DNA from: an uncultured Eubacteriales bacterium
GTDB taxonomy: Bacteria > Bacillota > Clostridia > Christensenellales > QALW01
Direction of reading: 5' to 3'
Length of the DNA stretch: 37,913 nucleotides
NCBI GenBank assembly: GCA_900552055.1
Contig: URYI01000006.1
Span: 1-37,913, forward strand
The notes under the pieces were generated by a model. It had not been told where the DNA came from and made no database searches. It saw only the letters and a list, made by a program, of their open reading frames with translations. Position numbers and translations under genes: made by a program. Below, piece by piece: positions 5,875 through 28,883 of this stretch; position 1 is the stretch's first letter; each line of letters begins with the position of its first letter.

Positions 5875-6420
5875 ATGATAAAATGGGTATGTTCAGTTTG
5901 CGGCTACACCTTTGAGGGACCCAATCCCCCTGAAAAATGTCCCCAGTGCAATGCTCCCGCTTCCAAATTCAATAAAGTTGAGCAGGGCGAAATGACCTTT
6001 GCGGCGGAGCATCAGATCGGCATCATTGACGGAGTGGACGCTGAAATCGTACAGGGTCTGCGCGAAAACTTTACCGGTGAATGCACCGAAGTAGGCATGT
6101 ACCTTGCTATGAGCAGACAGGCAGACAGGGAAGGCTATCCCGAAGTGGCCGAGGCTTACAAGCGCATTGCCTTTGAAGAGGCGGAGCATGCCGCCAAATT
6201 CGCTGAAATGCTGGGCGAAGTTGTATGCGCTGACACCAAAAAGAACCTTTCGATGCGCGTAGACGCCGAGCACGGCGCCACCGCTGGCAAAACCGAGCTT
6301 GCCGCTATGGCTAAAAAAGCCGGTCTGGACGCCATACACGACAGCGTGCATGAGATGGCCAGGGACGAGGCACGCCACGGCCGCGCTTTCAAGGGCTTGC
6401 TGGACCGCTACTTCAAATAA
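5875..6420 (+). CDS. Reverse rubrerythrin (rubredoxin domain first)
   Basis: The start is the ATG with GGAGG eight bases upstream, giving 181 aa; longer in-frame openings have no ribosome site. Residues 1-35 are a rubredoxin-type Fe(SCys)4 domain with Cys6, Cys9, Cys22 and Cys25. The rest is a ferritin-like di-iron bundle with the EEAEH and DEARH Glu-x-x-His motifs. This domain order is the reverse of classical rubrerythrin and is typical of clostridial revRbr, which reduces H2O2 and O2 to water using NAD(P)H-derived electrons in the cytoplasm. Monocistronic with a strong terminator. A second copy of its 3' end lies at 7001-7060. Confidence 0.95.
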
Positions 6421-16677: not shown

Positions 16678-19600
16678 TTAGATGACGACCTTAATATAAT
16701 GCGTGTTTTTATCGTCTTTAAGCACAATTTCACTGCAAGCTTTTCCGTCCAGGAGCAGGCTTCTGGCTCCAGTGCCCCTGCCCTCCGGATTAAACAGCTC
16801 AATTTTATAGAGACTTTCCCCATGCAAAAGCTCAACCGACACCTTATCCCAGCCGGGCGGAAGACACGGTTCAAAGATCAGCTTTTCTCCTTGAAGCTTA
16901 ATACCCAGAATATCCTCAAGATATACCGTATACATCCAGGCTGCCGCGCCTGTATACCACGTCCAGCCGCTTCTTCCCGCATTTGAGCCGCAGGAATAGA
17001 CATCGCCGGCCACTACATAAGGCTCTCCCTTATATACTGACGCCTGCTGGGAGGTCAGCGCATGATTGACAGGATTCAGCATATTCAGCACCTCGCCTGC
17101 CCTATCCGCCTCTCCCAGCATAGCCAGCGCCTTTAAGAACCATACGGCCGCATGAGTATACTGCCCGCCGTTCTCCCGCAGGCCGCCCAGATATCTCTGG
17201 ATATAGCCGGCAAAGGGCTGGTGCTTATCAAACGGCGGCCACAGCAGGCGGACAATGCCCGTGCCCTGTTCAACCAGCAAATCCATAACCGAGCGCACGG
17301 CCGTTTGCTGTCTTTGAGCGTCTCCCATGCCCGAAATAACCACCCACGCCTGCGAAATGACATCTATGCGGCATTCGTCCGACTGATTTGAACCTATTTT
17401 TTGCCCGTCGTCGCTTATGGCGCGCAGGTACCAGCGTCCATCCCACGCCCTTTCAACCGCTGCCCGCAGTCGGGCGGCAAATTCCATAAGCTCAGCCGCA
17501 GTATTTTCATCCTTTCTCATGCGCGCCACAGGAATAAATTCGCTTATGACGCTTAAAAGGAACCAGCCCAGCCATACGCTTTCTCCCCGGCCCTTAGCGC
17601 CCAGTTCGTCCATTCCGTCGTTCCAGTCCCCCGTACCCATTAAAGGCAGGCCGTTTTCTCCGGTACGCGCCGCGCGGCGCAGCGCGCGCAGGCAGTGCTC
17701 GTAAAGGATACCTTCACCGCTCAATGCAGGTTCCTCATATACATCCTTTTCCCCCTGAGAGGGCGCGCGGCCTGAAAGGTAAGGCGCTTTTTCGTCAAAT
17801 ATAGCGTAATCCCCCGTAATTTCCGCATACCGGCAGGCCACATAAGGCAAAAACAGCAAATCGTCGCTTATTTTTGTACGCACGCCTCTGCGCGGAGCAT
17901 GCCACCAGTGCTGGACGTCCCCTTCATTAAACTGATGTCCCGCACATTCAAGAATATGCGCGCGCACCAATGCGGGCTGGGTGTAAACCAGGGCAAGACA
18001 GTCCTGAAGCTGATCACGGAAACCAAAGGCCCCGCCCACCTGATAAAAGCCTGTGCGCCCGTAAAAACGGGAGCTGTAGCTCTGATAAAGCAGCCAGCGG
18101 TTAAACATAAAATCAAATGCCTTATCGGGCGTATCAACCTTAATAACGTCCAAACGCTCGTCCCAAAAGCTCTTTATATCCTCCAGGCATTCAAAAACGC
18201 CCTGCGCTTTTATCCTCTCTATATGCCGCGCGGCTTCTTCCAGGCTCTCGGCATAGCCCAGCGCACCCCATACCTCCGTTTCATTGCCTACTTCAAAAAA
18301 CATGCGTCCGGCAAGGAAGGGGTTAATCCCTTCGCCCTCAGGCAGATTTTTCAGGCGCATTCCCAGGGGCTGAGTAATATCTCCTTCTCCGAAAAAAGCG
18401 TCTCTGTCCAGGCAGCTTTCAAATTCCCCGGACAAATACAAATAGGCATATTTATTATCCCGCTTAACATATATAAAGCCTTCTCCCCGGCCGCAGGAAA
18501 GAAACTTAACGCTTTCCTTCCTGTCCCGGCCCAGCGCCGCTTCTATACATGCGGTAACACTTAATTTTCGTGTTTTACCGCTTCTGTTTAAAAAATGCAT
18601 GCTGTAAATCTTCACAGGCAGTTCTCTATGGACAAATACCGTCTGCCTCTGCTCCAGGCCAAAGCCGTTATATTCAAAATAACTGTAGCCCTGGCCGTGA
18701 ACTGCTTTATATTCGTCTCCCAGGTTTATAGGCGAAGAAGTTATAGTCCAGAACCGGCCGTTTTCTTCATCCCTTATATAGATATACTCGTTAGGAATAT
18801 TGATAACGGGATCATTTTGGAAATCAGTAAGCTTTTCCAGGCCGCTGTTGGCATGCCAGGTATAGCCTCCGCCGTTTTCACAAACTACCGTACCCAAATT
18901 CCCTGTCGAAATTACGTTGCTCCAAGGCAGAAGCGTGCCTCTTCCCCTGCGGATTAATATAACATATTCCCTTCCGTCCTCGGTAAAGCCGCCCAGCCCG
19001 TTGAATAATTCCAGGCTCTGCGCAGTAATTTTAGAGGGCGGATAATCCGAGGGAATAATCTCCAGCTTTTCAGGCTCAGGGCCCTGGCTGCGCTCATTCT
19101 GCTCAGAATGCGCAAGGTCTATATATATGCAGGACATACTCTTAAGCGCCTGGAGCATATCTGGGCTTTCGTATCGGCACTTATGGTGAACCACCTCGTT
19201 TTCCCCTCTTTCAATAGAAGCAAGAAGGTTTTCCACCCGGTTATAATCCGCCTGCATATAATCCTGCTCGCTGAAATCCAGCACTAAAAGATCCATTTTA
19301 AAGCCCGCAAAACATATATAGCGGTATGCGCTTATCACACTTTTTAAGCTCTCCGAGCTGAATTGCGCCGGGCAGTGGACAAGCATTATAGGATTATCCC
19401 CTGAAATGCCCATGCTCCAGAGCAAATCCCTTTTCCCGTTTTCGCTTATACCCGCCTTTGCGTCTCTCAGAGCGTTATATATGGCCCTGCCCGCCAAAAT
19501 AATCTGGTTAGCGCCTATATTATAATAGTTCATGCGCGCTACCGCCTGGGCGCAGGCAAGCTCGGCCTCTTTTTTGCTTTCACAAGCTTTAAGGCCCGTT

Positions 19601-22600
19601 AAAAGCTGTTCCATTTCCCCCTCGTTAAGAGAAGCGGAAGTATAAAAAGTTACGCTTGAACGCTGGTTAGGCTTCAATTTTATTCGTACGCTCTGCGCCA
19701 GCATAGGCTCAATGGGCACTTCCTTAAAATCACCCGGCCGTTCCTCGGCGCAGGCAACCATATCGGGCAGCCCTGTGTTTGTCCGGCCATAGAAGGCAAA
19801 GCGGTCGGTGCAGTACCACTGCGCTTCAAATTCTCCCGCCGCCGATAACGCTATGCAGCCGTCCGTCTCTCCCCGCTTGCCCCGCCGTTTTAATATAACT
19901 GCGTCCGAGAGCTTTTGAGCGCTGACAAACAGCTTATTAAACACCCTGTGCGCATAATAATCATTGGGCGGGCAAAGCACGGCGTCATGCGCCAGGGTAA
20001 TAATTGCCTCCCTGGGCTGCATTGAAAGATTTTCCAATTCGATTGTGCGTATTTCCACGTTTTTATCCGCACTCAAAATTATCTCTTCACTAATTTTAAA
20101 GTGTTTCCCCGTATAAGAAAATACGCATTTATCCTCCCGGAACATGCCTTCAAGCGCGCCCGGCCATATAACAGACTGCTCTGATTCATCCTTTATATAA
20201 AGGCTGGACCCGCCTCTGAAAATTCCTCCGTTAAAGGAAGGCAAAGTCAGCGCCAAATCCTTAAACCAAAGCGCGCCCGTACCATCAGCAAAATATACTC
20301 CCCGCAAGCTGCCGTTAGAGAGCGCCTGTACTCTGCCGGGCGCCGCCTTTGCCGGAGTAATATTAAGGCTCTTAACCTTGACCTCCTCGCGCACTTTCCG
20401 CGGTGAAGCGCCTTCGGGAGGCTTCTCTTCCAAAAGCAGCGCCGCAGCCTTTATCATATCGTTTTCCATAAAGCCCGCTCTGACCGCCGAATTTTCCAGC
20501 AGATTGCAAAGGGCGCACAAAGACATGCCGTTATGATGAGCCATATAGGTAGCGGCCAGTTCGCCGGCATTATAATTCTCCATAGCCCCGCGGCTGTGCG
20601 TGAAATCTATAGCCTCAAACATGCCCAGGCTGCCGGCGCAGCCGCGCTGCACAAGCTTCACCAGATTTTCCATGCTCTCGCGGGGAAAGCGTTCCATTGC
20701 CAAAATGGTGGAATAGGGAGAAACTACCCTCTCTCTGGGACAGGAGCTTAGGGCCGTTTCATATACGCCGAATGCCTTGTATTTATATTCCCTGTGCCTG
20801 TCCAGCGCATAATATGCCGATTCGCTGATACCCCAGGGGATATTCTCCCATCTTCCGTATGCAATCTGCGCTCTGACCGCTCCGTCAACGCTCCTGCCCA
20901 ATAAAGTATCTCTATGCGTATCAAAGAATATTTCAGGCATCAGGTATTCAAACATAGTTCCGCTCCAGGAAAGCAGAACGGGCTCGTTGTCAATCCTGGA
21001 AATGGGCCTGCCCAGCGCGAACCAGTGTTCAGCCGGAACCATGCCCGAAGCTACGGCATAATAGCTGCACAATCTGCTTTCAGAGGCCAGAAGGTCATAA
21101 TAATGACTGCTCATTTTGTCCTCCTGCGCGTCCCAGCCTATAGAAAACAGCTTTTTCTTTGCGTCATACAATCTATAAAGCTCGCAGTTTTCCAGCAGAT
21201 TATCTATTCTGCGCTGAAACTGCGCCGCAGCGGTATTTAATGAAGATATATAATCCAGGGCAGTTCTTTTTAAAGCCGCATCATTAAAATAACTGTCCGG
21301 ATTTATGCTTATTTCATGCAGGCTCGCGCTGCACACCCCTTTAATGCCCAAGCCTTCATACATCTGAACAAACCCATTATACAGCTCCCTGACAAACTTT
21401 ATACCCTTAACTGAATCTAGGCTCCCATCATTTATAACCCCGTTAAGCACAGCGCACAAGGTGGATATATTTTCAGCTCCGGCCAGCGCGCCGTCATACT
21501 GCTTTATATTATCGTATATATCCTTATCCAGCCGCTTTTCATCCACAACGCTCATTAAAAGGGTGCGCATCCCCTCTTTTATCCGGCCGTCCATAAGCGA
21601 ATGCCTGAATAAATCTGACAGCATGCCCCGGCAGGCCAAAAGGCAGCAAAGAAAATTGCCGCTGTCCACGCTGGAAATATATTTAGGTTCCATAGGGCTT
21701 AAATCAGATATTTTATACCAGTTATATAAATTGCCGTACCATTTGTCCAGGCCTTCTATAGTTGCAAGAGTATTATCCAGCATTTTTAAAGCCTCAGACG
21801 GCGAAATAAGCCGCATATATGCAGCGCAGAGAGGGGCCAGCGCTCCGAAGCCTATATTGGTGGCGCTGGTTCTGTCCGCAAAGCCTATAAAAGGCCGCTG
21901 CTGAAAATTGTCAGGAGGCAGATAATGCGTATCCTTATTCATCCCCTCATAAAAGAACCTGAAGGTGCGGGCAGCCAGCATTCGCAGCGCATAAAGCTGT
22001 TCAGGCAGCAGCCTGTCCTTTTTCACTTCCGCACTAAAAGACAAGCGGTATGCTATATAAGGCGCAAACGCCCAGGCCAGCCCCAAAATAAGAGGCAGAA
22101 ACAAGTACCGTCCAAAAGCAGCGGCAATCAGGAAATATACCGCGCCGAAAACCGCGCAGGGCCACATAGCCGCCGCATAAGTGTTGCCCGTCGCCCGTCC
22201 TTTTTCGCTGTCCGCCGCAGTCACCCATTCCAGCATCCGCTTCTTGCTTATAAGCATGCGGTACAGCGCGCGGATTTTGGCATCCGCGTATATATACGCT
22301 TCATAGGGCAGAAATACAAAGCTAAGGGCCAGCCGCACTATTACGGCCCATATGTCCGGCAGAGCGTCGCGCAGTGTATATTTACGCTTTATAGCCCTGT
22401 AAACTCCTACGGCCTTAGAAAATACCTCCAGCCCCAATGGATAGAATACCGCCTGGAGCGCAAAGGCAAAATAGGTAAGCATATTGCCCGGAAGAACGGA
22501 TACCGAAAGCAAAAGAAGAAGCAGTACCGAACCGGGGAACAGCGTCCTGAACATATTGGCGAATATTTTAAAGCGGGCTAAAGGAGAAAGCTCCTTCTTA

Positions 22601-24882
22601 AATACCCAGCGGGCCAGCTGCCAGTCCCCGCGCGTCCAGCGGTGCGCGCGCTTATAATAGGACAGCGCCTCGCCCGGAAAGCTGTCAAAAAATTTAACGT
22701 CTCCGGCAGTAGCGCACCTGAGAAAAGAGCCTTCAAGCAGATCGTGGCTGAGCACGGTATTTTCTGGAATTCTGTCCCCTATCGCCGTCTGGAAAGCGTT
22801 TACGTCTATAATTCCCTTGCCGCCAAAGCTCGCACAGTTAAAAATGTCCTGATATACATCGCTCACCAGTCCCGAATATGCGTCCAGGCCGCCCTTAGGC
22901 GAGAAAAAGCGCGCAAAATAGGTTTTGAGGGAAGATATAGTGGTACCCATGCCCGGCTGGATAATACCGAACCCCTTGACAATCCGCCTTTTTTCCCGGC
23001 TGTATACCGGCCTGTTCAGAGGATGTGCCGCGCGCGAAACAAGGCTCAAAAGCGCACCGGGCGCCAATCGGGTATCCGCATCTACGGTCAGAATATATTT
23101 TACATTCGCAAGGCAAGCAACGTCCCCCTGAAAATAATGGTTATCCTCGCCCGAACACACCTTAACCAGCTGTAAGAGCGCCCCTCTCTTGCGCTCATAA
23201 CCCATATATTTTTTATCCCTCGCTACATAGCTGCGCTGACGGTGCAGATATACAAACTGCGCCTGAGGATATTTTTTATTAAGCGCCTCAATCCGGCGGG
23301 AGGCCTCCTCAAATATCCCAGCATCCTGCTCTTCCTCCAGATTGGGTCCGTCCTTATAATCGCCCAAAAGCACATAAACCGCGTTTTCGCATCTGTTGGA
23401 GAGATAATGCCTTTCCAGCTGCGCGCATACATCATCGGCGCGCTTTTTACTGCTCAGCAGCGCGGGTATAACCACCGCCGTGCGGTTCTGAGGCGTATCG
23501 CACTCTTCCTCCTTAAGTCCCGGCACAATTATTGGCTTAACAAAAATATTTATCATGCTGTTAAGCAGTATTTCAGTCATTACATACGCAGGCGCTATAC
23601 CCACAACCGCGGTTATAAGGCCATAGAGCCATTTTAAAGACTGAGCGGCGCTTACTGCATATATAACCAGGGGCGCCAGCATAAAAACAGTAATTATCCC
23701 CAGCGCGCAGAAATAATATATGCCCATATATTTTTTAGATAAAAAGCGCTTTCTGCTCTTTATTTTGCTTTCTTTAAACAGCCTGTCTATAAGCCTTTCC
23801 CGCTCCGAACCAATAAGGAAAGCGCATATTCCTCCCGGCAGAGAAGTATCTTCGCGCGCCAGCGTTAATGCCGTTTCCAATATTTCAGTTTCCCCGGCGC
23901 CGTACCTCCGGCTCATCCTGGCCAGCGACACCCGGCAGGCGCTTTTTGTGGCCTTATTGGAACGCGCGTATGTCCCCGATTCCTCTTCCAGCAGCATACG
24001 TTCAGCTTTAAAGGTTTCCTTAATAACCTCTTCAGTTTCTATATCTCCTATAGTTATAAGCCGTTTGACAGAAGCGGCCTCCGCAGCCGAAAGGCGGGAA
24101 TGCAAAAGACGTATTTCCTTAAGCAGAGATTCCCTGTCCAGTCCCCTGCGGCTCAGGGCGCGTTCACATAAAACCGCCAGCTCGGTTTTAGAATCCAGCC
24201 TGGATAAAATGAGCATGAAATTATAAAAGCTCTCTCCGCTGTTATCCTGATTTAATTCGCGCAGAATGACTTCGCTGCGGTTTTCCCTTGCCAGCCGCGC
24301 CATCTTTTCATAATTGCCGGCCGAATTAAGCATACTTAGAGCAGACTGAGTTATCTGCTCCAAAAGACATAACTTAAGGCAGAAGGGCAATAAAAAGCCC
24401 TCCTCCAGCTGCAAGTCCCGTATCTGATTTATCTCCCCAATATAGGCGGTTAAATCCTCCTGGTTAAAGCTGCCCCCGTTTTTCATTATAAAATGCCCAG
24501 CCACCTCATAAATTCTGAGGTTCCCCGCTTTATTCACAGGCAGTTTCATGGAAAGATTGGCCTGCTGCGCGCATATCTGTTCCGCTTCGCTGAAAAGCCG
24601 GTTTTTATTATCTGCCAGCCATTTCAGTCCCAGCTCAAATTCTTCGGGCATCAGTTCCTCAAGCCTTGTTACGCATTCCTCCAAAGCAGACTGCATAAAA
24701 GCGGGGTTTGGAAGGGCTTTTTTTACTTTTTTGAGCCGAACCGAGCTCAAATCGGGCTGATCCGCAATATGCTTAAAGCTTCCGCCATCACTTAAAGCGG
24801 CGTATGTCCGCTTCTTTTTAGCTTCGTATACGATTACTGAAATAGCCGCTAGCAGCAAAATTGTCAACACAATGTATTCCAT
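16678..24882 (-). CDS. Cyclic beta-1,2-glucan synthase (GT84 / GH94)
   Basis: A giant 2734-residue membrane enzyme of the NdvB/Cgs type that makes cyclic beta-1,2-glucan from UDP-glucose. Order: a transmembrane helix at 4-20; segments near 388-440; a GT84 domain with DAD (601-603), SHDLLEG (about 712-718) and RAHRWTRGDW (745-754); more segments to about 945; a glycoamylase-like domain (FADRTSATNIGFGALAP from 1001, WGISESAYY near 1350) thought to help ring closure; then a C-terminal GH94 phosphorylase-like domain that sets ring size (NGLGGF near 1960, GFRDQ near 2288, GDWNDGM near 2420). Length and order match proteobacterial enzymes. The ATG has GGGAG upstream. It stands alone; no exporter gene is adjacent. 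Confidence 0.93.
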   Translation of the reverse strand: MEYIVLTILLLAAISVIVYEAKKKRTYAALSDGGSFKHIADQPDLSSVRLKKVKKALPNPAFMQSALEECVTRLEELMPEEFELGLKWLADNKNRLFSEAEQICAQQANLSMKLPVNKAGNLRIYEVAGHFIMKNGGSFNQEDLTAYIGEINQIRDLQLEEGFLLPFCLKLCLLEQITQSALSMLNSAGNYEKMARLARENRSEVILRELNQDNSGESFYNFMLILSRLDSKTELAVLCERALSRRGLDRESLLKEIRLLHSRLSAAEAASVKRLITIGDIETEEVIKETFKAERMLLEEESGTYARSNKATKSACRVSLARMSRRYGAGETEILETALTLAREDTSLPGGICAFLIGSERERLIDRLFKESKIKSRKRFLSKKYMGIYYFCALGIITVFMLAPLVIYAVSAAQSLKWLYGLITAVVGIAPAYVMTEILLNSMINIFVKPIIVPGLKEEECDTPQNRTAVVIPALLSSKKRADDVCAQLERHYLSNRCENAVYVLLGDYKDGPNLEEEQDAGIFEEASRRIEALNKKYPQAQFVYLHRQRSYVARDKKYMGYERKRGALLQLVKVCSGEDNHYFQGDVACLANVKYILTVDADTRLAPGALLSLVSRAAHPLNRPVYSREKRRIVKGFGIIQPGMGTTISSLKTYFARFFSPKGGLDAYSGLVSDVYQDIFNCASFGGKGIIDVNAFQTAIGDRIPENTVLSHDLLEGSFLRCATAGDVKFFDSFPGEALSYYKRAHRWTRGDWQLARWVFKKELSPLARFKIFANMFRTLFPGSVLLLLLLSVSVLPGNMLTYFAFALQAVFYPLGLEVFSKAVGVYRAIKRKYTLRDALPDIWAVIVRLALSFVFLPYEAYIYADAKIRALYRMLISKKRMLEWVTAADSEKGRATGNTYAAAMWPCAVFGAVYFLIAAAFGRYLFLPLILGLAWAFAPYIAYRLSFSAEVKKDRLLPEQLYALRMLAARTFRFFYEGMNKDTHYLPPDNFQQRPFIGFADRTSATNIGFGALAPLCAAYMRLISPSEALKMLDNTLATIEGLDKWYGNLYNWYKISDLSPMEPKYISSVDSGNFLCCLLACRGMLSDLFRHSLMDGRIKEGMRTLLMSVVDEKRLDKDIYDNIKQYDGALAGAENISTLCAVLNGVINDGSLDSVKGIKFVRELYNGFVQMYEGLGIKGVCSASLHEISINPDSYFNDAALKRTALDYISSLNTAAAQFQRRIDNLLENCELYRLYDAKKKLFSIGWDAQEDKMSSHYYDLLASESRLCSYYAVASGMVPAEHWFALGRPISRIDNEPVLLSWSGTMFEYLMPEIFFDTHRDTLLGRSVDGAVRAQIAYGRWENIPWGISESAYYALDRHREYKYKAFGVYETALSSCPRERVVSPYSTILAMERFPRESMENLVKLVQRGCAGSLGMFEAIDFTHSRGAMENYNAGELAATYMAHHNGMSLCALCNLLENSAVRAGFMENDMIKAAALLLEEKPPEGASPRKVREEVKVKSLNITPAKAAPGRVQALSNGSLRGVYFADGTGALWFKDLALTLPSFNGGIFRGGSSLYIKDESEQSVIWPGALEGMFREDKCVFSYTGKHFKISEEIILSADKNVEIRTIELENLSMQPREAIITLAHDAVLCPPNDYYAHRVFNKLFVSAQKLSDAVILKRRGKRGETDGCIALSAAGEFEAQWYCTDRFAFYGRTNTGLPDMVACAEERPGDFKEVPIEPMLAQSVRIKLKPNQRSSVTFYTSASLNEGEMEQLLTGLKACESKKEAELACAQAVARMNYYNIGANQIILAGRAIYNALRDAKAGISENGKRDLLWSMGISGDNPIMLVHCPAQFSSESLKSVISAYRYICFAGFKMDLLVLDFSEQDYMQADYNRVENLLASIERGENEVVHHKCRYESPDMLQALKSMSCIYIDLAHSEQNERSQGPEPEKLEIIPSDYPPSKITAQSLELFNGLGGFTEDGREYVILIRRGRGTLLPWSNVISTGNLGTVVCENGGGYTWHANSGLEKLTDFQNDPVINIPNEYIYIRDEENGRFWTITSSPINLGDEYKAVHGQGYSYFEYNGFGLEQRQTVFVHRELPVKIYSMHFLNRSGKTRKLSVTACIEAALGRDRKESVKFLSCGRGEGFIYVKRDNKYAYLYLSGEFESCLDRDAFFGEGDITQPLGMRLKNLPEGEGINPFLAGRMFFEVGNETEVWGALGYAESLEEAARHIERIKAQGVFECLEDIKSFWDERLDVIKVDTPDKAFDFMFNRWLLYQSYSSRFYGRTGFYQVGGAFGFRDQLQDCLALVYTQPALVRAHILECAGHQFNEGDVQHWWHAPRRGVRTKISDDLLFLPYVACRYAEITGDYAIFDEKAPYLSGRAPSQGEKDVYEEPALSGEGILYEHCLRALRRAARTGENGLPLMGTGDWNDGMDELGAKGRGESVWLGWFLLSVISEFIPVARMRKDENTAAELMEFAARLRAAVERAWDGRWYLRAISDDGQKIGSNQSDECRIDVISQAWVVISGMGDAQRQQTAVRSVMDLLVEQGTGIVRLLWPPFDKHQPFAGYIQRYLGGLRENGGQYTHAAVWFLKALAMLGEADRAGEVLNMLNPVNHALTSQQASVYKGEPYVVAGDVYSCGSNAGRSGWTWYTGAAAWMYTVYLEDILGIKLQGEKLIFEPCLPPGWDKVSVELLHGESLYKIELFNPEGRGTGARSLLLDGKACSEIVLKDDKNTHYIKVVI

Positions 24883-25524: not shown

Positions 25525-26214
25525 TTAAAATTTAGCCGCATTCAGACGGATACCGGGGCCCATTGTGGTGGAAATGGCTACGCTCTTAAGATAGGTTCCC
25601 TTAGCGGCCGCAGGCTTGGCCTTATTAATGGCCTCCATAAGCACGTTAAGATTCTCAATAAGCTTATCCTTGCCAAAGCTGGCCTTTCCTATAGGCACAT
25701 GCACAATAGCGGTTTTATCCACGCGGTATTCTACCTTACCGGCTTTAATGTCATTTATAGCACGGGAAATATCCGCCGCAACCGTACCGCTCTTGGGGTT
25801 AGGCATTAAGCCTTTAGGACCAAGCAGCTTACCTAAACGGCCTACCAGACCCATCATATCAGGCGTGGTGACAATCACATCATAATCGAACCAGTTCTCA
25901 TTCTGGATCTTGGAAACCATTTCCTCAGCGCCTACATAATCAGCTCCCGCAGCTTCGGCTTCAGCCGCCTTGTCGCCCTTAGCAATAGCAAGTATGCGCA
26001 CCTTCTTGCCGGTACCGTTAGGCAGCACAACCACGCCGCGAACCTGCTGGTCTGCATGACGCGGGTCAACGCCCAGCTTAATGGACAGCTCTACCGTTTC
26101 ATCGAATTTAGCCTTAGCCGTCTGAAGCACCAGCTCAACAGCCTCTTCTGTATCATATAACTTTTGAGCATCCACTAATTTCAGGCTCTCTAAATATTTT
26201 TTTCCGTGTTTCAT
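25525..26214 (-). CDS. rplA: 50S ribosomal protein L1
   Basis: Full-length L1 (229 aa) of the ribosomal L1 stalk. Recognisable blocks are [21 protein letters not shown] at the start, the [13 protein letters not shown] strand, [42 protein letters not shown] and the [21 protein letters not shown] end. GAGGAGG precedes the ATG. It is the last gene of the operon, followed by a terminator instead of rplJ-rplL. L1 commonly represses its own operon by binding leader RNA; two such sites are visible upstream. Confidence 0.97.
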
Positions 26215-26227
26215 CTTTTTCCTCCTC

Positions 26228-26264
26228 GTGGTTATAGCGGTGCAGAATAAAATGCCCCTCCCAC
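26228..26264 (-). promoter_or_regulatory. L1-binding leader element before rplA
   Basis: On the minus strand GTGGGAGGGGC ... CGCTATAACCAC closes a stem with the purine-rich GGGAGG strand opposite ATAAC. This is the pattern of the 23S rRNA L1 site (GUGGGAGG ... AUACCAC). It ends immediately before the rplA ribosome site, so bound L1 could block translation. Confidence 0.7.
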
Positions 26265-26275
26265 TTAAATAAAGC

Positions 26276-26701
26276 TTATTCCTCGACTGTAACGCCCATG
26301 CTGCGAGCTGTTCCGGCTATCATGCTTATAGCTCCGTCCAGGTCAACAGCGTTAAGGTCAGGCATTTTAAGCTCTGCAATTTCCTTGAGCTGCGCTTTGG
26401 TTATCTTGGCAACCTTGGTCTTATTAGGAGCGCCCGAACCGCTGTCAATCCCGCAGGCCTTCTTAATCAGCACGGCCGCAGGCGGGGTCTTGGTAATAAA
26501 GGAAAAAGAGCGATCCTGATAAATGGTAATAACCACCGGGATAATCATACCGGCCTGTTTGGCGGTACGCTCATTAAATTCCTTGCAGAAGCCCATAATA
26601 TTTATACCATGAGGGCCGAGCACCGAACCGACAGGAGGCGCCGGAGTAGCCTTACCGGCTGCAATCTGCAGCTTAACCATACCTGTTATCTTTTTAGCCA
26701 T
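26276..26701 (-). CDS. rplK: 50S ribosomal protein L11
   Basis: Full-length L11 (141 aa), binding the GTPase-associated centre of 23S rRNA. The start [40 protein letters not shown] is canonical, and the C-terminal RNA-binding domain carries the family's [12 protein letters not shown] and [31 protein letters not shown] precedes the ATG. It lies between nusG and rplA in the usual order. Confidence 0.97.
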
Positions 26702-26730
26702 AATTAAAACACCTCCTCGTTATATAATGT

Positions 26731-26758
26731 GGTGATAGCGAACAAACGTCCTCCCACC
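26731..26758 (-). promoter_or_regulatory. L1-binding leader element before rplK
   Basis: On the minus strand GGTGGGAGG ... CTATCACC forms a closed stem with the same GGGAGG strand as the 23S L1 site, in the nusG-rplK gap just upstream of the rplK ribosome site. A GCGCC/GGCGC hairpin adjoins it. Confidence 0.65.
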
Positions 26759-26799
26759 GCGCCCAAAGGCGCATATATATCACAGGCTTAAAATTAAGC

Positions 26800-27333
26800 C
26801 TATAATACCTGAACCTGTACAAAATCCACTTCTACAGGCGTATCCCGGCCGAACATGGAAACAATGACTTTAAGCTTCTGTTTAGCCGGATCAATCTCTT
26901 CAACAACTCCGGGAAAGCCGTCCAGCGGCCCCGAAACAATCCTGACATAGTCTCCCTTTTTAATATCCAGCTTAATGGAGACATTTTCTACGCCCATCCT
27001 GCGCACTTCCTCATCGCTCAAAGGAATGGGCTGCTTGGAACCCGGCCCGACAAAGCCCGTTACGCCGCGCGTATTCCTCACGGCATACCAGGTATGCTGG
27101 TTCATAATCATTTTAATCATGACATAGCCGGGATAAAGCTTGCGCTCAACAAGCTTTTTCTTGTCATTCTTTATTTCCATGACCTCTTCCACAGGGATTT
27201 TTACATCCACAATATAATCCTGCAGCTGCATGTTTTCCACCATGTTCAGCAGGCTGGTCATGACCTTATTCTCATAACCCGAATAGGTATGAATTACATA
27301 CCACTTCGGCTCATTTACCGTTCCTTCACTCAT
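26800..27333 (-). CDS. nusG: Transcription termination/antitermination protein NusG
   Basis: A 177-residue NusG with the N-terminal RNA-polymerase-binding domain (KWYVIHTYSGYENKV, then YPGYVMIKMIMNQHTWYAVRNTRGVTGFVG) and a C-terminal KOW domain (GDYVRIVSGPLDGFPGVVEEID). GGGAG lies seven bases before the ATG. Between secE and rplK in the conserved cluster. Confidence 0.97.
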   Translation of the reverse strand: MSEGTVNEPKWYVIHTYSGYENKVMTSLLNMVENMQLQDYIVDVKIPVEEVMEIKNDKKKLVERKLYPGYVMIKMIMNQHTWYAVRNTRGVTGFVGPGSKQPIPLSDEEVRRMGVENVSIKLDIKKGDYVRIVSGPLDGFPGVVEEIDPAKQKLKVIVSMFGRDTPVEVDFVQVQVL

Positions 27334-27348
27334 TAGGAAGCTCCCTTT

Positions 27349-27609
27349 TTACTGAAACAGCGCCGCAAAATTATCAGTAAGCAGCGACAAAAGCTTGCTG
27401 ACGCCATAATCCATAACACCGGTTACAATAGCCATTACAATAACAAATACAAACACGCCTATAGAGTAATTCTTAAGCTCCTGGCGGGAAGGCCATGTCA
27501 CCTTTTTCAGTTCGTGCACCATATCCTTGATTGGATTGGAGCGCTTCTTTTTTTCTTTTTTAGCCTTAACGGGCTTCTGCTTGGCTTCCTTTTCAATCTT
27601 GTCTGCCAT
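27349..27609 (-). CDS. secE: Preprotein translocase subunit SecE
   Basis: An 86-residue single-span SecE. A Lys-rich N-terminus (KKEKKKRSNPIKD) leads into the conserved amphipathic helix VHELKKVTWPSRQELKNYS and one transmembrane helix (about 50-70). Stabilises SecY in the translocon. Ribosome site weak (GGATGTG). Confidence 0.95.
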   Translation of the reverse strand: MADKIEKEAKQKPVKAKKEKKKRSNPIKDMVHELKKVTWPSRQELKNYSIGVFVFVIVMAIVTGVMDYGVSKLLSLLTDNFAALFQ

Positions 27610-27649
27610 TTTTCTTTTTTCACATCCTTAAATAATAAGGTCCAGCCGC

Positions 27650-27811
27650 TTATTTAGTCTCCTTATGAGCGGTATGGGATTTGCAAACGGGGCAATATTT
27701 CTTGATTTCAAGACGGTCAGGATCATTTTTCTTGTTCTTGCTGGTAATATAATTTCTATTCTTGCAATCAACGCACGCAAGAGTAACATTGTTTCTCTGT
27801 CCGGCAGCCAT
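27650..27811 (-). CDS. rpmG: 50S ribosomal protein L33 (zinc form)
   Basis: Start set at the ATG after GGAGG (53 aa); an upstream frame is not needed. This is the zinc-binding (C+) form with Cys13, Cys16, Cys40 and Cys43. The family core [35 protein letters not shown] is intact. It heads the secE-nusG-rplK-rplA operon, as in most Firmicutes. Confidence 0.95.
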
Positions 27812-27873
27812 TTCTTTAACACCTCCGACTTTTAAGCACACAAAATAAAAGCATTTTTCTCAAATGCTTTATA

Positions 27874-27902: not shown

Positions 27903-28491
27903 CCAAAAAAAGCGAAATCGCGCATTTTTCCTGTCCAAATCCGGTTTTATTCAATTTTAATCCGCCTCCCCCTCCCTTTAGCAATCCGCAATAAGCACTT
28001 TCGCGTATTGAATAAAAAAAATGGTTTGTCCGTAAAGAATAATACAATCATAAATAGCCGAATTTGCGTCACGGACTGTTCTGCTTACCCTCCCGGTGCG
28101 CATGCCCAAGTTTGCCTTGCACAGGCGCAATCAGCGTGATTTTACTATATAACCTCAGTTCATTTAAATTTACCCGTCTTTGAAGCGGAACAATAAGGAC
28201 ATCCAAAAACGAATTCCTCTTGAGGTTGTCGCAATGCCGATATAAGTTGCCGCAATACCGATTGAGGTTATCGCAATACCGATGGAAGTTGCCGCAGAAG
28301 GACTGAAAAATTCAACTGAATGTTATCTCTTGCGCACTGTTGCAGCATTATATTAAGGCAGCTTATCTCCATAACCCCTGCGGTAACTTAAATGTTTTGC
28401 AAAATTAGCCTGCAAACATAATTGAATTTCTCCCCCCGCTATCTAAAAGCAGCTCATCCCTTTTTATTTTTACCGTTACTCTAAAAAACGC
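27903..28491. other. Intergenic region between the L33 promoter and tRNA-Leu
   Basis: Nearly 600 bases without a gene that can be supported. It holds the 21-bp tandem repeat at 28222-28300, AT-rich runs, and short frames that do not extend. Possibly the site of a decayed small gene. Confidence 0.5.
28222..28300. repeat. 21-bp tandem repeat, about 3.8 copies
   Basis: Units start at 28222, 28243, 28264 and 28285, with consensus GAGGTTGTCGCAATACCGAT plus one variable base. One frame over the array stays open and reads heptads such as KLPQYRL and RLSQYRW, but no start or ribosome site was found. Confidence 0.85.
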
Positions 28492-28520
28492 TTGCCCAAA
28501 AACCCGAAGCATGCTATTAT
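28492..28520 (+). promoter_or_regulatory. Promoter of tRNA-Leu
   Basis: TTGCCC, 17 nt, then TATTAT preceded by TGC (extended -10), about 15 bases upstream of the mature tRNA 5' end. Confidence 0.65.
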
Positions 28521-28535
28521 AATTAAGCGCTGTAT

Positions 28536-28839
28536 GCGAGTGTGGCGGAACCGGCAGACGCACGGGACTTAAAATTTGAGCACCTGAGGCGAAATCCTCA
28601 GCGTGAATCGCGTCAAATTCGGTGGAACTCCCCAATGGGACAATACCGAGCAAAGCCCTTGAGAAAAGGGAATGTGTAGAGACTAGACGGCGCGCGCCCA
28701 CAGCCTGATAGAAAAAGGCCGGGCGAAGGTATAGTCCAGACTACAACGCTTGATAACTAAGCGGCTATGGCAACATAGAGTAGCATGAAAATCCCGGGTT
28801 GGAGACAGCGTGAGGGTTCAAGTCCCTCCACTCGCACCA
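28536..28839 (+). tRNA. tRNA-Leu(UAA) interrupted by a group I intron
   Basis: The exons (28536-28570 and 28788-28839) join into a complete class II tRNA. Acceptor GCGAGTG pairs with CACTCGC. There is a D arm, an anticodon stem CGGGA/TCCCG around loop CTTAAAA (anticodon UAA), a long variable arm (GTTG/CAGC) and a T arm GAGGG/CCCTC around TTCAAGT. CCA is encoded. The discriminator A is typical of leucine. The intron sits between U34 and A35, the same place as in cyanobacterial and plastid tRNA-Leu. Without splicing this gene cannot give a working tRNA. It has its own promoter and terminator. Confidence 0.95.
28571..28787 (+). ncRNA. Group I intron in tRNA-Leu(UAA), IC3-like
   Basis: A 217-nt self-splicing type intron. 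P1: exon CUU with GAG (28578-28580), giving the U-G pair at the splice site. P2 28584-28589/28596-28601; P4 28618-28623/28645-28650; P5 28629-28632/28637-28640; P6 28656-28660/28666-28670; P7 GACTA (28681-28685) with TAGTC (28732-28736); P8 28695-28699/28721-28725; P9 28747-28751/28759-28763; P9.1 28765-28769/28774-28778. The R-like GTAGAGACTAGACGG and S-like AAGGTATAGTCC elements are present, and the last base is the omega G. P3 is the least clear. No homing endonuclease is encoded. Subgroup IC3 is inferred from the host position. Confidence 0.93.
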
Positions 28840-28841
28840 AA

Positions 28842-28883
28842 AAGAGACAAACTTGTTTTAGAGCAGGTTTGTCTCTTCTTTTA
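28842..28883 (+). terminator. Terminator of tRNA-Leu
   Basis: AAGAGACAAACTTG pairs with CAGGTTTGTCTCTT (14 bp, one wobble) around an 8-nt loop, then TCTTTTAT. Confidence 0.85.

Follow-up and report, generated by a model that had tools for sequence, protein, structure and literature searches.

The group I intron of the tRNA-Leu(UAA) gene is the classic case for an ancient bacterial intron kept by vertical descent, and we take its insertion site in Cyanobacteria and plastids to be the junction between U34 and A35. A 2014 review assigns a more ancestral origin to this intron, and names Cyanobacteria, alpha-proteobacteria and beta-proteobacteria as the bearers of bacterial group I tRNA introns (PMC4033280). 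The cyanobacterial-type gene has a 34-nt 5' exon (PMC2729099), and putative group I introns in tRNA-Leu(TAA) have been described from two Beggiatoaceae, Beggiatoa BOGUAY and Thiomargarita nelsonii (PMC4853749). Further bacterial group I introns interrupt tmRNA, with a mean length of 293 nt in the founding set of the paper concerned (PMC11915505). Among the open-access papers listed by our searches, we saw no report of a tRNA-Leu intron in a Firmicute or of group I introns in phage tRNAs.

We identified a split gene of this kind in a stretch of 37,913 nucleotides from an uncultured clostridial bacterium, called the window below. The tRNA-Leu(UAA) gene occupies positions 28536-28839 of the forward strand, and a 217-nt group I intron separates its U34 from its A35. 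The 5' exon (28536-28570, +) ends in U34; the intron (28571-28787, +) ends in its omega G and contains no homing endonuclease gene; and the 3' exon (28788-28839, +) begins at A35 and closes with an encoded CCA (28837-28839). ARAGORN called no tRNA in the whole window, and none in the unspliced gene sequence, but returned a complete 87-nt tRNA-Leu(taa) with encoded CCA once the insert was removed, and both exons and the intron boundaries are placed by this reconstitution. The first-pass annotation had proposed a tRNA-Leu(UAA) that folds only without these 217 nt, interrupted between U34 and A35, and its insertion point and coordinates proved exact. The insert matches RF00028, Rfam's single general group I model, over the full model length with 53.1 bits against a cut-off of 50 (E 7.3e-11), so that the covariance-model check proposed with that annotation came out in favour of a group I intron. 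The pattern formed by the 5' exon and the intron start was absent from 100 shuffles of the window.

Consensus scanning placed a sigma-70-like promoter with an extended -10 element (TTGCCC-17-TATTAT, 9/12) at 28492-28520 (+), and an intrinsic terminator-like site of 16 pairs with a T-rich tail directly after the tRNA, at 28842-28877 (+). There were two promoter-like sites against 0.8 expected from shuffles, a count so little above expectation that the promoter call is weak, and two terminator-like sites, likewise consensus matches only, against 0.9 expected. As consensus matches, the two sites may frame the split tRNA as a single-gene unit.

The fold of the intron was examined in an alignment of 33 of 65 distinct introns from tRNA-Leu(UAA) genes. 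The structure tested comprised 52 pairs, namely the RNAalifold consensus with its pairs 189-198 and 190-197 swapped for P7. Across these same-site introns 95.8% of cells were paired, and 36 pairs showed two-sided changes. None of 500 shuffles reached four of the five structure measures, and one of the 500 reached the fifth, the number of pair types. Sliding the structure along the alignment reduced the paired cells to 26-42%, although this control is lenient, as the structure was derived from the same sequences, and it is the two-sided changes that carry weight.

All helices lie on the forward strand. The internal guide GAG (28578-28580) pairs with CUU of the exon (28568-28570) to form P1, and the window has both the U.G pair of the 5' splice site, formed between exon CTT and GAG, and a G as the last base of the intron. 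The guide (G8 A9 G10) is invariant in 33/33 aligned introns, as is the last G; the finders demanded an exon T and a last G, so that for loci other than the window these two are there by selection. P2 (28581-28605, formed by 28581-28590 with 28595-28605) has two-sided changes in 10/10 pairs and 85.4% of cells paired. Covariation likewise identifies P3 (28609-28694, formed by 28609-28614 with 28689-28694), which encloses P4 (28619-28624/28644-28649), P5 (28628-28629/28639-28640), P6 (28650-28652/28673-28675) and P6a (28656-28659/28667-28670), each also marked by covariation. P7, the guanosine-site helix, joins GACTA (28681-28685) to TAGTC (28732-28736) and is pseudoknotted with P3, its span (28681-28736) holding P8 (28695-28698/28722-28725). 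It is paired in 33/33 introns, with four of its five pairs never varying and the fifth showing two-sided changes (AU, UA, GC), and is thus also placed by covariation, as is P9 (28740-28784, formed by 28740-28744 with 28780-28784), together with a distal P9 stem (28765-28769/28774-28778).

The conserved group I core from P3 to P9, with the P7 pseudoknot, is therefore present in the window intron, and the helices map as first described (P1, P2 and P4-P9 with an omega G), P7 included; covariation, P7 again included, joins the RF00028 score in bearing out the group I assignment. There is no P5abc extension, P5 and its loop spanning 28628-28640 only, and introns of subgroup IC3 are described as being without P5(a-d) (PMC11835236). 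On these features the window intron appears to be a compact, IC3-like group I intron.

The split tRNA adjoins a chromosomal landmark, the cluster rplA-rplK-nusG-secE-rpmG (25525-27841, -), from which it is divergent. All five genes lie on the reverse strand and were matched by tblastn to three relatives: rplA (25525-26214) and rplK (26276-26701), whose names L1 and L11 were read from the sequence; nusG (26800-27333), with NusG homologues; secE (27349-27609), supported by Pfam; and rpmG (27650-27841), assigned to L33 by Pfam. The window NusG has a 99% match, P0001, on a contig of up to 34 kb. Its named matches at ~64-69%, among the matches listed, carry the labels Clostridia, Clostridiales, Christensenellales, Christensenellaceae and Gehongia, and the closest of 196 genomes of the class have a NusG of 63-65% identity, indicating that the host belongs to the Bacillota and, at the level of class, to the Clostridia. 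The clostridial rpmG-nusG setting, recognised at first from the letters and reading frames, is thus borne out by NusG homologues, Pfam and the relatives. Elsewhere, the window encodes a 23S rRNA intervening-sequence protein (PF05635; 31285-31581, +), while Rfam found no rRNA in the window; a 2734-aa protein with GH94 and glycoamylase domains (16678-24882, -), which we take to resemble cyclic beta-glucan synthase; and an Imm5-like putative immunity protein (PF21805; 32583-33071, +).

We investigated how widely the split gene occurs in the Bacillota. An exact scan for the tRNA-Leu 5' exon followed by this intron start, across the 84,980 species of the genome_contigs collection, returned one other stretch, L001, in a 2.3-Mb MAG that bears the label Oscillospiraceae bacterium STD2_96. 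With RF00028 the intron of L001 reaches 53.7 bits, and blastn aligns L001 to the window at 70% identity over exon and intron, the flanks being without match. Within this MAG, of unstated completeness, nothing but the split gene matches its spliced tRNA-Leu, and the neighbours of the gene look bacterial by eye. A looser pattern, which fits the window, found nothing in 391 genomes of the class; another pattern, also empty in the 391 class and 398 phylum genomes, was set aside as it fails on the window itself (CGGTGGA). RF00028 matched in 4/295 genomes of the order of L001, with tRNA-Leu exons only around the match in L001, and in 7/30 genomes of the nearest sampled order (that of genome G480), where no tRNA-Leu exons were seen. 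Twenty of these 30 genomes have an uninterrupted tRNA-Leu(UAA), in two the match was to other leucine tRNAs only, and eight gave no match. Among the Bacillota genomes searched, tRNA-Leu(UAA) seldom carries the intron.

Some of the remaining group I introns in the order of G480 were observed in other settings, judged from frames read by eye. Introns of ~320-350 nt lie beside flagellin-type genes (L136-L140 and L143), a flagellin intron being known in Geobacillus (cited within PMC4853749), and others lie just after smpB-like frames (L141, L142 and L144), probably in tmRNA. A MerR-like and a reductase-like gene stand near the group I intron both in L139 and in L001; the introns differ, and this is possibly a coincidence.

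The same site is occupied in phages. Blastn led to the 735-kb phage LR756501, in which an entire tRNA-Leu(UAA) is interrupted at the identical position. Pattern scans of the viral_contigs collection returned at least 120, 35, 1, at least 120, 52 and 41 stretches; the first, made with a short pattern (at least 120 stretches), was rejected as mostly chance matches and uninterrupted tRNAs, and the narrow pattern gave the single stretch. Among 359 viral stretches, 78 contained an entire tRNA-Leu(UAA) interrupted at this position, a proportion that is not a frequency because the stretches were selected by pattern, and 76 of the 78 have the P3/P4 motif. A brute-force ARAGORN splice scan proved too noisy, and explicit exon rules took its place; of these, only the tRNA-Leu rule was given a reversed-sequence control, which yielded no split tRNA-Leu gene. 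The loose pattern matched 86 viral loci, with the full gene in 76 and not in 10. A general exon finder, applied to 201 places with a P7 motif in loci of all sources, saw tRNA-like exons at 107, with anticodons TAA (79), CAT (8), TCT (7), TAT (4), TGT (2), GTT (2) and five singles, some of which look spurious, this finder being without a control.

At E 0.001, RF00028 matched all 11 phage records examined, nine of them over the cut-off, at 17 places. Fourteen of these places have tRNA exons around the anticodon loop, and ten of the 14 are Leu(UAA), two of the ten being the same gene in two contigs. Twelve of the 14 introns score 50.8 to 68.6 bits, and the other two 48.9 and 34.5. The cultured Agrobacterium phage Atu_ph07 (490 kb) has an intron-split tRNA-Leu(UAA) (L372, 4001-4195; NC_042013.1, at ~113 kb) to which no feature is annotated, and which is the only RF00028 match of that genome, at 48.9 bits, just under the cut-off. 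The paper on this phage, in the part available, reports 33 tRNAs by tRNAscan-SE and the absence of Asn and Thr tRNAs, and does not contain the word intron (PMC6102473); we identified no further RF00028 intron in Atu_ph07 that would explain the two missing tRNAs. Standard tRNA calling can miss split genes of this kind: ARAGORN called nothing in the window, and the Atu_ph07 record carries no annotation for its tRNA-Leu. Introns of fMet and Ile2 tRNAs lie outside what tRNAscan-SE 2.0 was designed to detect (PMC8450103). The word intron is absent from the main text of the huge-phage paper, as available (PMC7162821), and the available text of the Jug-phage preprint gives 2,513 group I introns and lacks the word tRNA (PMC12363816).

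Other tRNAs of large phages are split in the same manner. One 251-kb phage (viral record G1072, the contig of L337) has a group I intron in the anticodon loop of four tRNAs (L428, L438, L440 and L442), whose anticodons identify them as Gln(UUG), Arg(UCU), a tRNA with CAU, and Leu(UAA). Terminase PF03237 was detected in 7/14 records tested, of 490, 353, 335, 328, 251, 79 and 735 kb, and the sheath family PF04984 in none of the seven terminase-negative ones. The contigs nearest to the window (L327, L147 and L177) have no detectable PF03237 terminase or PF04984 sheath, and 6/7 proteins at the L327 locus are without a PHROG match. Phage families occur in other stretches of these contigs: a helicase beside homing-endonuclease-like genes in that of L327, a tail-fibre match in that of L147, and a minor-head match as well as phage DNA polymerase in that of L177. 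At the L327 locus ARAGORN also called 12 tRNAs and one tmRNA.

Two further observations concern related introns at other sites. A CAU-anticodon tRNA intron in a 39-kb viral contig (L204) is 90% identical over 178 columns to the Azoarcus tRNA-Ile intron. By blastn, phage records (H29-H40), presumably of SP6-like phages, match intron positions 46-115 at ~81-82% over 70 nt, and in most of the annotated cases the match falls within a terminase large subunit gene, indicating that related intron cores sit in protein genes too.

Some of the longer phage copies encode endonucleases. L315 contains a LAGLIDADG_2 protein (E 2.3e-26), L309 and L380 have HNH_3 matches below the curated cut-off, and L167 has a similar frame with no Pfam hit. 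In phages, this site may thus serve as a homing site. The window intron has no ORF of at least 45 aa wholly inside it, two ORFs (28405-28701 and 28542-28679) overlapping it, and it lacks the homing endonuclease that marks mobile (homing) group I introns.

Plasmids carry the site as well. By blastn the window gene matched 42 plasmid records, of which the best six (four Bradyrhizobium, one E. coli and one Klebsiella) cover exon and intron, the remaining matches listed covering the 5' exon only. In each of the three examined in detail (L132, L133 and L134), tRNA-Leu(UAA) is complete and contains the intron. The window gene matches an E. coli plasmid of the collection at 69%, while E. coli genomes gave nothing at E 1e-5, and an Anabaena intron had no blastn match among the plasmids. 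On the Klebsiella and the E. coli plasmid (L132 and L133, ~5995-6290) the split gene lies near an aac(3)-II-type aminoglycoside-resistance gene; we would guess that this stretch originated in a bacterium other than the Enterobacteria.

We compared the introns in two trees. The first comprised 102 introns (100 fetched, with Anabaena and Azoarcus as the other two), with those longer than 330 nt, those with a finder score below 16 and two doubtful rows excluded; the second held 95 rows, a further seven long-branch rows having been dropped. The window, L001, L327 (a 106-kb viral contig) and L147 (a 129-kb viral contig, its gene also present in the 279-kb contig L177) form a clade with support of 100/99 and 98/99, respectively, although the tree tool flagged long branches, L001 among them, and an unsettled bootstrap in both trees. 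Over 190 tree columns the window is most similar to L327 (75-76% identity). Five other viral introns follow at ~67%, and L001 comes seventh with 66.5%. In quick trees the window still joined L327 (99) when L001 and L147 were removed. It lay nearest L001 and L147, without starred support, when L327 was removed; fell in a starred set of three with L147 as nearest row (98) when L327 and L001 were removed; and paired with L001 (98) when L327 and L147 were removed. J7/9 is one base shorter in exactly four of the 95 rows, these same four, a mark noticed after aligning; two other marks shared by the four are not exclusive to them (11/95 and 9/95).

The first-pass annotation had left transfer and a wider natural range of the intron side by side. 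The balance moves towards transfer, from a phage pool absent from that account, given that the closest introns are those of phages, that 20 of the 30 genomes in the nearest sampled order have the gene uninterrupted, and that the intron is rare in the Bacillota samples. We consider it probable that the locus is an ordinary splicing group I intron of a lineage circulating in phages, acquired horizontally by a clostridial chromosome. The direction, from phage to bacterium, is suggested by the rarity, the empty relatives and the kinship together; it is not readable from the tree, as the introns are short and the groups for the approximately unbiased (AU) tests were picked afterwards. For the window exons the best match is 0.788 among viral exons and 0.773 among relatives, which does not mark them as clearly phage-like, so that the intron alone may have moved, and an identity of only 75-76% to the nearest phage intron indicates an event that is not recent.

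On this reading, the split tRNA would be transcribed from its own promoter and the intron would fold. With U34 held in place by the U.G pair in P1, exogenous guanosine would attack directly after this base, and the freed exon would then attack after the omega G, joining U34 to A35 in a normal 87-nt tRNA. The structure makes splicing of the window pre-tRNA plausible, and the host would need it, as the anticodon is split; we propose that an intron without a homing endonuclease stays because it splices. The intron belongs to a lineage found at this position in numerous phage tRNA-Leu(UAA) genes, and its arrival in the clostridial chromosome would most likely have been horizontal, from the phage pool, through homing or through recombination of a phage tRNA gene with that of the host.

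Alternatively, the intron could be ancient in Bacteria and mostly lost in Clostridia, with phages having taken copies along with host tRNA genes, a history that we judge unlikely without dismissing it. It would account for the same site in Cyanobacteria and on Bradyrhizobium, Klebsiella and E. coli plasmids. It would account, too, for the putative tRNA-Leu introns of Beggiatoaceae (PMC4853749). The window and L001 may also be sisters, since an AU test of the window with L001 alone gives p 0.5, and the exons of L001 are nearest to those of clostridial relatives (0.805); if these two are a pair of their own, movement from bacterium to phage is possible. However, the rarity in Clostridia (0/391 genomes, and one match in the exact scan) would need many losses, and the nearest kin found are viral. 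Grouping the window, L001 and three plasmid introns together, five bacterial introns in all, is disfavoured (p 0.026), with the reservations that the group was chosen after the tree, that its rows include two plasmid copies, nearly identical and skewed in composition, and that a Mycetohabitans plasmid intron (L377) was left out. The AU groups and the J7/9 mark, having been chosen after the trees and the alignment were seen, weigh less than their numbers suggest.

Joining of a phage tRNA to a bacterial contig by contamination or misassembly seems very improbable. The record may be metagenomic and the nearest kin are viral, but the tRNA is a solitary gene next to rpmG-secE-nusG-rplK-rplA, flanked by a promoter-like and a terminator-like site of its own, Pfam assigned no phage family to any of the seven proteins scanned around it, and the separate MAG of L001 also has a split tRNA-Leu(UAA) among bacterial-looking neighbours, with no other match to that tRNA. 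Equally improbable is a degenerate remnant that no longer splices, in a pseudogene: the RF00028 score is only 3 bits over the cut-off, yet this is usual for the kind (as in the 12 of 14 phage tRNA introns noted above), the core helices, P7 among them, are all preserved along with the omega G, and the exon stems, the CCA and the terminator-like site are kept.

Acquisition from phages, our preferred reading, has wider consequences. With the site occupied in many phages, and a phage copy nearest to the clostridial one, there is a concrete route of transfer, and the age of the tRNA-Leu(UAA) intron becomes testable by a well-sampled tree. As a tentative extension, which we regard as possible rather than probable, large phages may be a circulating reservoir of bacterial anticodon-loop group I introns, traded by homing, above all through tRNA-Leu(UAA), and seeding chromosomes; the cyanobacterial tRNA-Leu intron could then be a settled branch of it.

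Compared with known systems, the window intron resembles the cyanobacterial one in lying in the same gene, split after U34, and in being small with a GAG near its start. It differs in sequence, sharing 54% of 203 columns with an Anabaena intron, and grouping the two is disfavoured (AU p 0.043), so that a special tie to the cyanobacterial intron is not supported on this one Anabaena sequence, which sits on a long branch. The Azoarcus tRNA-Ile(CAU) intron (IC3) is similarly small and has the same core motifs, but lies in another tRNA and is 57% identical over 180 columns. The tmRNA group I introns are alike in interrupting a tRNA-like RNA, and differ in their site, the T-loop. The introns of Beggiatoa BOGUAY and Thiomargarita nelsonii, which we take to be Gammaproteobacteria, share with it, in a comparison by description only, a putative group I character and a place in tRNA-Leu(UAA) outside Cyanobacteria. 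Closest are the phage introns (L327, L147/L177, Atu_ph07 and LR756501), with the same site and fold and, for L327, the same clade, which differ in lying in viral genomes, several beside other tRNA genes and some with endonuclease genes. Both the site and the kind of intron were thus known before; what is added here is the phylum context, the phage pool, and a clade that links this pool to a chromosome.
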